Assembly: GCA_024709485.1 (NCBI GenBank)
Contig: JANJWO010000006.1
Span: forward strand, 1-64,000
Direction: 5' to 3'
Origin: Hydrogenophilaceae bacterium
Lineage (GTDB): Bacteria; Pseudomonadota; Gammaproteobacteria; Burkholderiales; Thiobacillaceae
DNA length: 64,000 nucleotides
The notes beneath the pieces are model-generated. The model searched no databases. It was not told the origin of the DNA and saw only the letters and a list, made by a program, of their open reading frames with translations. The position numbers were made by a program, and so were the translations under genes. Below, one piece after another: positions 14,962 through 56,255 of the stretch; within the stretch, counting starts at the first letter, position 1; the number at the start of each line of letters is the position of its first letter.

Positions 14962-16029
14962 ATGTCCGCACTCAAAAACGATACCTTCCTGCGCGCCCTG
15001 CTGCGCGAGCCCGTCGACTACACGCCCACCTGGCTCATGCGCCAGGCCGGGCGCTATCTGCCGGAATACAACGCGACGCGCGCGCGTGCCGGCGATTTCC
15101 TGGCGCTATGCAAGACGCCGGACCTGGCCACCGAGGTGACGCTACAGCCGCTCGCGCGCTATCCGCTGGATGCGGCCATCCTGTTTTCCGACATCCTGAC
15201 CGTGCCGGACGCCATGGGCCTCGGCCTCTACTTCGCCCAGGGCGAAGGCCCGCGCTTCGAGCGGCCCTTGCGCGAAGAATGGGCGATCCGCGCCCTGGCC
15301 GCGCCCGACCCCGCCGACAAGCTGGGCTACGTGCTGGACGCCGTCAGGAGCATCCGCAAGGCGCTGGACGGTTCGGTGCCGCTGATCGGCTTTTCCGGCA
15401 GCCCCTTCACACTGGCCTGCTACATGATCGAAGGCAGCGGCTCGGACGACTACCGCACGGTGAAGTCGATGCTGTACCAGCGCCCCGACCTGTTGCACCA
15501 TATTCTTGAAATCAACACCCGCGCGGTCACCGATTACCTGAACGCGCAAATCGAGGCCGGCGCCCAGGCGGCGATGATTTTCGACACCTGGGGCGGCATG
15601 CTGTCCCACCGCGCCTACCGCGAATTCTCGCTGGCCTACATGGCCCGTATCGTGGCCGGCCTCAAAAAGGAAAACGAGGGCCGCCGGGTGCCCAGCATCC
15701 TGTTCACCAAAGGCGGTGGACTGTGGCTGGAGGACATGGCCGCCACCGGCTGCGACGCGCTGGGGCTGGACTGGACCATCGAGATCGGCGACGCGCGCAG
15801 GCGGGTGGGGGACAAGGTCGCGCTGCAGGGCAATTTCGACCCGCTGTGCCTGATGGGCAGCCCCGAAGCCATCGTGAACGAAGTCGAAGCCATTCTAGAG
15901 AGCTACGGGCCGGGTTCCGGCCATGTCTTCAATCTCGGGCACGGCATCAATCAGCATACCCCGCCCGAGAACGTGAACGTGCTGCTCGATGCCATCAGGA
16001 AAACCAGCCCCGGCTATCATGCCGGCTAG
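14962..16029 (+). CDS. hemE: uroporphyrinogen decarboxylase
   Basis: [17 protein letters not shown] and [14 protein letters not shown]-type motifs (here [15 protein letters not shown]), [16 protein letters not shown]. Confidence 0.98.
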
Positions 16030-16049: not shown

Positions 16050-16349
16050 TGGTACTTATGCACAAATGATGTGTTCCGCACAGGGTTTTTGCGTGCCTGG
16101 CTTGACAGCCGGGCAGAAAATATAACTCTCTGTTTATTAAAAACAATCTCCCTTGCCCGTTTTTTGACCGAATCGCCGCGATGGCGTATTTACGCCCTTT
16201 GGGAGGAATGGCGAACAGTCATCCACAAAATTATCCACAGATTTCGTGGACAACCCAAAAACCTTTAATAATCATAAAGGTTTAGCTCGATCTTCACGAA
16301 ATAACAGCAACTTTGGCCGCTAACTAAAGCCTCTTATCCACTGCCCGCC
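16050..16349. promoter_or_regulatory. AT-rich spacer with a cluster of DnaA-box-like 9-mers
   Basis: TTATGCACA 16056-16064, TCATCCACA 16219-16227, TTATCCACA 16231-16239, TTATCCACT 16334-16342; inverted repeat ACCTTTA..TAAAGGT about 16261-16281. Confidence 0.55.
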
Positions 16350-18521
<2,172 letters not shown>

Positions 18522-23735: not shown

Positions 23736-24072
23736 ACTAATCAGCAGCGACGAAACCTGGGCGGCCTTACTTGCCGCTGCGCATGGAATCGAAGAACTCG
23801 GCGTTGTTCTTGGTGGCGCGCATCTTGTCCAACAGGAATTCCATCGCTGGAAGGTGCGGCCGTGGAGCGCGGAGCCTCGGCACGTGCGACCGCGGAGCGG
23901 CCGCGACCTGGAAGCGGCCTTATTTCCCTGAGCGCATGGAATCGAAGAACTCGGCGTTGTTCTTGGTGGCGCGCATCTTGTCGAGCAGGCATTCCATCGC
24001 TGGAAGGTGCGGCCGTGGAGCGCGGAGTCTCGGCACGTGCGACCGCGGAGCGGCCGCGACCTGGAAGCGGCC

Positions 24073-25335
<1,263 letters not shown>

Positions 25336-55549: not shown

Positions 55550-56255
55550 CCAGATAGTCGCGCACGGCATTGGCGCGGCGCTCGGACAGTTTCATGTTGT
55601 AGTCGTCGCTGGCCCGGGCGTCGGTATGACCCGCCACCTCGACCTTCACGTTGCCCCACTCCTTGAGCGTGGCCGCCATCTGATCCAGGGTTGCCATGGC
55701 TTCGGGCCGCAGCGTCGCCTGGTCGTTGTCGAAGTTCACGCCTTCCAGAACCAGCTTCTTGGGCGCAGCGGCAGCGGGCGCGGGCGGCGGCGGGCAGCCG
55801 TCGGCGGTCTTGGCATAAACCGTCGGGCACTTGTCCACGCCATCGACCAGACCGTCGCCATCGCTGTCCAGTTCGCAGCCATTGGCATCAACCTTGCGGC
55901 CGGCGGGGGTGTTGGGGCACTTGTCCAGGCCGTCGACCACGCCGTCGCCATCGCTGTCCAGCTCGCAGCCGTTGGCGTCAACCTTGCGGCCGGCGGGGGT
56001 GTTGGGGCACTTGTCCTTGTCGTCGGTCACACCGTCGCGGTCGCTGTCCTTGGGCGGGACGTCCTTGCAGGGAGCGCCGAACAACTGCTGGCCGGGGCAG
56101 CCGATGGTCTTGAAGAGCTCGTAACCGACGGTCTTGCCGGTCGGGCTGGCCGCGTTCGAGGGATCGTAATAACCCTCCTGCGCCTGCGCGCCCACCGCGC
56201 CCACGGAAATGAGCGCGGCGCCCATGAGTTGGATGACGAGACGTTTTGTTTGCAT
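55422..56255 (-). CDS. OmpA-family protein with thrombospondin type 3 repeats
   Basis: DSDRDGVTDDKDKCPNTPAGRKVDANGCELDSDGDG...; OmpA C-terminus VAGHTDARASDDYNMKLSERRANAVRDYLV. Confidence 0.95.
   Translation of the reverse strand: MQTKRLVIQLMGAALISVGAVGAQAQEGYYDPSNAASPTGKTVGYELFKTIGCPGQQLFGAPCKDVPPKDSDRDGVTDDKDKCPNTPAGRKVDANGCELDSDGDGVVDGLDKCPNTPAGRKVDANGCELDSDGDGLVDGVDKCPTVYAKTADGCPPPPAPAAAAPKKLVLEGVNFDNDQATLRPEAMATLDQMAATLKEWGNVKVEVAGHTDARASDDYNMKLSERRANAVRDYLVSKGVAADRLTAKGYGESQPVADNETEEGRYKNRRVELIPQQ
55846..56035 (-). repeat. in-gene 90-bp tandem repeat (30 aa, TSP3)
   Basis: ACCTTGCGGCCGGCGGGGGTGTTGGGGCACTTGTCC begins at 55891 and 55981. Confidence 0.85.

Follow-up and report, generated by a model that had tools for sequence, protein, structure and literature searches.

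DnaA boxes and neighbouring genes in the hemE-priA spacer

The window (i.e., the whole 64,000-nucleotide stretch of DNA that was analysed) comes from a draft genome of 77 contigs and 2.54 Mb that is 83% complete, and it belongs to contig C71 of that genome. The element described here lies between hemE (14962..16029, + strand; TIGR01464), its upstream neighbour, and priA (16350..18521, + strand; NF004067/TIGR00595), its downstream neighbour; both gene identities had been given in a sequence-only reading of the same DNA and are upheld. That reading had also placed in the spacer four DnaA boxes facing in one direction, an inverted repeat, and an AT-rich tract, and all of these are present where it put them. 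The boxes, all on the + strand, are TTATGCACA at 16056..16064, TCATCCACA at 16219..16227, the perfect box TTATCCACA at 16231..16239, and TTATCCACT at 16334..16342, 7 bp ahead of the priA ATG; the inverted repeat ACCTTTAATAATCATAAAGGT (ACCTTTA/TAAAGGT), to which no strand applies, spans 16261..16281. Overlooked at the time was a fifth site, at 16245-16253 on the opposite strand, which proves diagnostic. It reads CGTGGACAA on the + strand and TTGTCCACG on its own (- strand), and is a DnaA box with two mismatches. We refer to this opposed site as core box I, to the perfect box as core box II, and to TCATCCACA as core box III; box III is separated from box II by 3 bp, and box I lies 5 bp from box II. 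Box IV (TTATGCACA) is found farther out, at offset -166 in terms of the trio pattern, past a degenerate IHF-like site on the - strand (AAACAGAGAGTTA, 16123..16135, offset -99) that is located within the AT tract and has two mismatches to WATCAANNNNTTR.

The DnaA boxes of the spacer are genuine and above chance. Exact matches to TTWTNCACA occur twice in 64 kb, both times in the hemE-priA spacer, and of the seven sites in the window with at most one mismatch to TTATCCACA, four fall within a stretch of ~290 bp, compared with a shuffle mean of 2.9 per whole 64 kb. A chance pattern is ruled out by these window shuffles together with the reversed-pattern controls and the free-gap test reported below. 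The only promoter match found in the spacer is a weak promoter-like one at 16247-16275, which overlaps the core. As for the box closest to priA, the same-genus relatives that we looked at have TTATCCACT or TTATCCACC just ahead of the priA start, and other genera do not, as judged by eye; 16334-16342 may be an additional DnaA box, specific to the genus, at the start of translation. Elsewhere in the window there are two tandem repeats. One, with a 153-bp unit (23761-24154; 2.6 copies, 95% match), overlaps and runs past the 3' end of rho (24073-25335, - strand), so that the terminal portion of this coding sequence recurs downstream of the gene; the other, with a 90-bp unit (55825-56049; 2.5 copies), lies within an open reading frame.

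Core geometry, flanking sites, and spread among relatives

According to reviews, DARS1 and DARS2, the DnaA-reactivating sequences (DARS) of E. coli, which recharge the initiator protein DnaA, have a common box spacing with box I opposed, and the head-to-head pair is both characteristic and essential. As read from NC_000913, DARS1 has the form TAATACACA-3-TTATCCACA-5-AGTGGATAA on one strand, and the DARS2 core, which we located via the deletion primers printed in PMC4585315, has the form TTCTTCACA-3-CTATCCACA-5-GGTGAATAA. The window trio, TCATCCACA-3-TTATCCACA-5-CGTGGACAA, with its boxes starting at 16219 (+), 16231 (+), and 16245 (-), is identical to both in box order, strands, and gaps (3 and 5 bp). 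The window locus has the three boxes, the opposed box I, and the DARS1/DARS2 spacing by which a DARS is recognised, and its location is likewise that of a DARS, being intergenic (between hemE and priA) and away from oriC (the skew origin is elsewhere; see below). A position matrix built on 53 sites of relatives, with the window's own genome excluded, gives the window site a score of 43.5, compared with -6.5 for the next best site in the 64 kb and with a top score of 9.8 among ten mononucleotide shuffles. Because the training sites were chosen with the trio pattern, what carries weight is how the matrix performs on E. coli, where its scores are 33.6 for DARS1, 28.1 for DARS2, 11.0 for datA, and 3.4 for oriC; that is, a matrix derived from the relatives recovers DARS1 and DARS2, not datA or oriC.

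Within the genus the spacer is kept, and a core of ~40 bp upstream of priA is kept across the family, even in genomes with hemE elsewhere. In the complete genome G010 (2.72 Mb), for instance, the element is at 116 kb and the end of hemE is at 2.62 Mb, showing that the element tracks priA, not hemE. With a tolerance of two mismatches, 338 of the 399 genomes of the order have the trio, and the reversed-pattern control gave only a handful of matches. When exact boxes were required and both gaps were left free (0-12 and 0-16, 221 combinations), 115 of the 118 matches listed had gaps of 3 and 5 by hand count, and the reversed control gave 0. Trio-like sites extend to further families of the same phylum. 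Of 200 genomes sampled from the phylum, 130 have a trio match; these include, by our own count, 39 of the 43 genomes that belong to the same class but lie outside the order, and the trio is missing from several other families in the sample. Exact trios were also found in a scan of genome contigs, the matches listed including records of Burkholderia, Collimonas, Nitrosomonas, Dechloromonas, Acinetobacter, Dyella, and Methylomonas; it should be noted that some of the scanned records belong to the same order, which makes this set separate by locus and not wholly by lineage. As a side observation, five genomes (G153, G226, G468, G496, and G519) carry trios on both strands 12 bp apart, with four boxes in a symmetric arrangement.

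Neighbour searches yield two main places for the trio, one upstream of the replication-restart gene priA and the other between xseA and exbB; both are occupied in the window's genome (C71:16219-16253 and C28:1832-1866, respectively). The genome-contig scan, which covers beta- and gammaproteobacteria, returned at least 82 exact trios, and among the 82 listed, 24 lie within 1.2 kb of a priA match, five within the same distance of xseA and exbB, and one, in Rodentibacter, within that distance of uvrB, as DARS1 does. The tested genes are all absent from the neighbourhood in 52 of the 82 trios listed, and those that we inspected adjoin varied genes, in our own reading.

An IHF match (at most one mismatch) is present on the box-III side in 30 of the 35 priA-type loci of the order (block-shuffle expectation 9.6) and in 22 of the 24 xseA-type loci (block-shuffle expectation 7.1), mostly at -99 to -102. 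Loci from the genome-contig scan, which had no part in defining this offset, have an IHF match at -97 to -104 in 50 of the 77 listed, compared with 0-2 in 35 control windows. Of the 74 listed scan loci with full flanks, 49 have the IHF site and 62 have a fourth DnaA box, positioned at -160 to -192 (0-5 in the control windows); the fourth box is perfect in 44 of the 74 (0-2 in the controls), and IHF site and fourth box occur together in 46. At the level of sequence, the four-box-plus-IHF layout recurs across beta- and gammaproteobacteria. The window's IHF-like site has the offset and strand seen in the relatives but two mismatches, which makes IHF binding there the weakest link; IhfA and Hda are both encoded in the window's genome. 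At the xseA-exbB trio of the same genome (C28:1832-1866), no IHF match within one mismatch is found at -100, where most relatives have one.

GC skew and alternative readings of the locus

An oriC-like locus was among the possibilities raised by the sequence-only reading, and the Caulobacter origin adjoins hemE. A chromosomal replication origin at hemE-priA would be in keeping with the combination of DnaA boxes, an IHF-like site, and an AT-rich tract, as well as with the proximity of priA to dnaA in several relatives. An oriC is, however, expected at the GC-skew minimum, and at the hemE-priA site there is no skew flip: skew in the window is negative both before and after the element, and the cumulative skew of C71 falls nearly to the contig end. 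In the same genome (G000), dnaA is found on another contig, C77, at ~9.9-11.3 kb, and the cumulative-skew minimum there is at 22.5 kb, about 11 kb beyond dnaA. In the relatives, too, the minimum coincides with dnaA or lies close to it, and the element is tens of kb or more distant. In G002, which belongs to the same genus, dnaA is at 58 kb and the skew minimum at 61.7 kb (~4 kb from dnaA), and the element follows 44 kb later, at 105.6 kb, flanked by positive skew on either side. Among the complete relatives, in which skew was sampled in 20-kb stretches, G010 has dnaA at the contig start and its skew minimum at most 25 kb away, with the element in a mostly positive stretch, and in G051 the skew turns from negative to positive at 1.40-1.44 Mb, far from the exact trio at 3.64 Mb. 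The skew in the window, on its own genome's dnaA contig, and in G002, G010, and G051 rules out an origin at hemE-priA, and the matrix fails to pick out E. coli oriC; we give this reading next to no credence. Two findings had been named in advance as speaking against the original proposal, a skew minimum elsewhere and boxes that are not conserved in relatives; the minimum does lie elsewhere, the boxes turn out to be strongly conserved, and together these results point to a conserved non-origin DnaA locus. The dnaA contig, C77, contains very few consensus DnaA boxes despite the nearby skew minimum, and the true origin of the window's genome appears to be poor in perfect boxes.

The same reading had alternatively suggested that the spacer titrates DnaA or that DnaA controls priA. 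Its view that the spacer binds DnaA is well supported and these two suggestions come close, yet the specific match is to DARS. If the element were a DnaA operator, bound DnaA would switch transcription of priA (elsewhere of xseA) with the cell cycle and the geometry would serve repression or activation only; this would fit the position of the element directly ahead of priA in many beta- and gammaproteobacterial genomes (the 24 of 82 listed trios mentioned above), the overlap of the core with the weak promoter-like match, and the fact that E. coli DARS1 and DARS2 likewise precede repair genes, uvrB and mutH. The spacing between trio and priA, however, takes values of 48 to 297 bp in different relatives, with the internal offsets constant to within a few bp, which argues against a pure operator, and the same module is found at xseA-exbB and beside varied genes, the G051 copy adjoining an ABC-ATPase gene and not priA. 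With its internal geometry fixed and its neighbours and distances varying, a simple priA operator as the sole function is disfavoured, and we consider it unlikely. Passive titration, in which the site would merely soak up DnaA, is consistent with several high-affinity boxes near the origin region and with the enrichment of DnaA boxes near oriC in E. coli (PMC12371093), but it predicts neither the constancy of the two gaps (115 of 118 matches) nor the fixed IHF offset, and strikes us as very improbable. Somewhat less remote, and still improbable, is a datA-like site at which DnaA and IHF would promote hydrolysis of DnaA-bound ATP, lowering initiation. In datA, too, tandem boxes are 3 bp apart and boxes flank an IHF site, and the priA site is at most 116 kb from dnaA in relatives with both genes placed. 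A datA site is, however, recognised by tandem boxes, an IHF site, and a box 3 without an opposed core box, whereas the window has the opposed box; in datA there is no box I at 5 bp, the matrix score is 11.0 (28-34 for the DARS sites), and the IHF site flanks the tandem boxes from the opposite side. A datA identity is disfavoured on this geometry.

A putative DnaA-reactivation locus and its counterparts in E. coli

We propose that the hemE-priA spacer probably carries a DARS2-like DnaA-reactivation locus, which may also influence priA. With the steps carried over from E. coli and the layout and position read from the sequence, ADP-DnaA would bind the core boxes of the trio, the head-to-head DnaA pair on boxes I and II would loosen ADP, IHF bending would carry DnaA on box IV to the core, and apo-DnaA would depart and reload ATP, such that ATP-DnaA would rise ahead of the next initiation at the dnaA-proximal origin. 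Core occupancy may, in addition, modulate priA transcription; the frequent priA neighbourhood could itself reflect gene control, which would count against this proposal.

To our knowledge, DARS sites have been dissected almost only in E. coli. The DARS2 core has been described as restricted to E. coli-related gammaproteobacteria (PMC4245941), DARS-like sequences in many proteobacteria are mentioned in a review on the basis of earlier work (PMC10380432), and in V. cholerae the sites lie by uvrB and mutH (PMC6090056). In the part of the literature that we covered, we found no betaproteobacterial DARS, no DARS near priA or xseA, and no four-box-plus-IHF layout; the priA/xseA placement and this layout appear to be new. 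In a betaproteobacterial order, most of the genomes sampled have this fixed, recognisable module at defined places (the priA-upstream and xseA-exbB sites), where DnaA recharging outside E. coli could readily be put to the test; the placement suggests that DnaA status is connected with genes for replication restart and repair. We raise as a tentative possibility that DARS in beta- and gammaproteobacteria ancestrally had this widespread four-box-plus-IHF form, from which E. coli DARS1 and DARS2 would be derived, and that its position before priA and xseA couples the DnaA nucleotide cycle to genes for restart and repair.

Set against known systems, the element resembles E. coli oriC and the hemE-side origin of Caulobacter in its DnaA boxes with an IHF-like site and its nearby hemE, an analogy that for Caulobacter concerns position only; it differs from oriC in lying off the skew minimum and in matrix score (3.4 for oriC). 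With E. coli datA it has in common the 3-bp gap of the tandem boxes and a combination of DnaA boxes with an IHF or IHF-like site. E. coli DARS1 (bioD-uvrB spacer) has the same core geometry and also sits ahead of a DNA-repair gene; unlike the element, it is reported to be ~101 bp long and without an IHF requirement. For E. coli DARS2, Fis sites are known (FBS2-3). Located in the rppH-mutH spacer, DARS2 shares with the element the three-box core and a further, outlying DnaA box, and with the relatives' loci an equally oriented IHF site between the two on the box-III side, where the window has its two-mismatch IHF-like site; it differs in its neighbour genes, in its IHF match at ~-90 compared with about -100 in the relatives (i.e., ~10 bp closer in), and in its box V near -188, which is oriented opposite to the relatives' fourth box.
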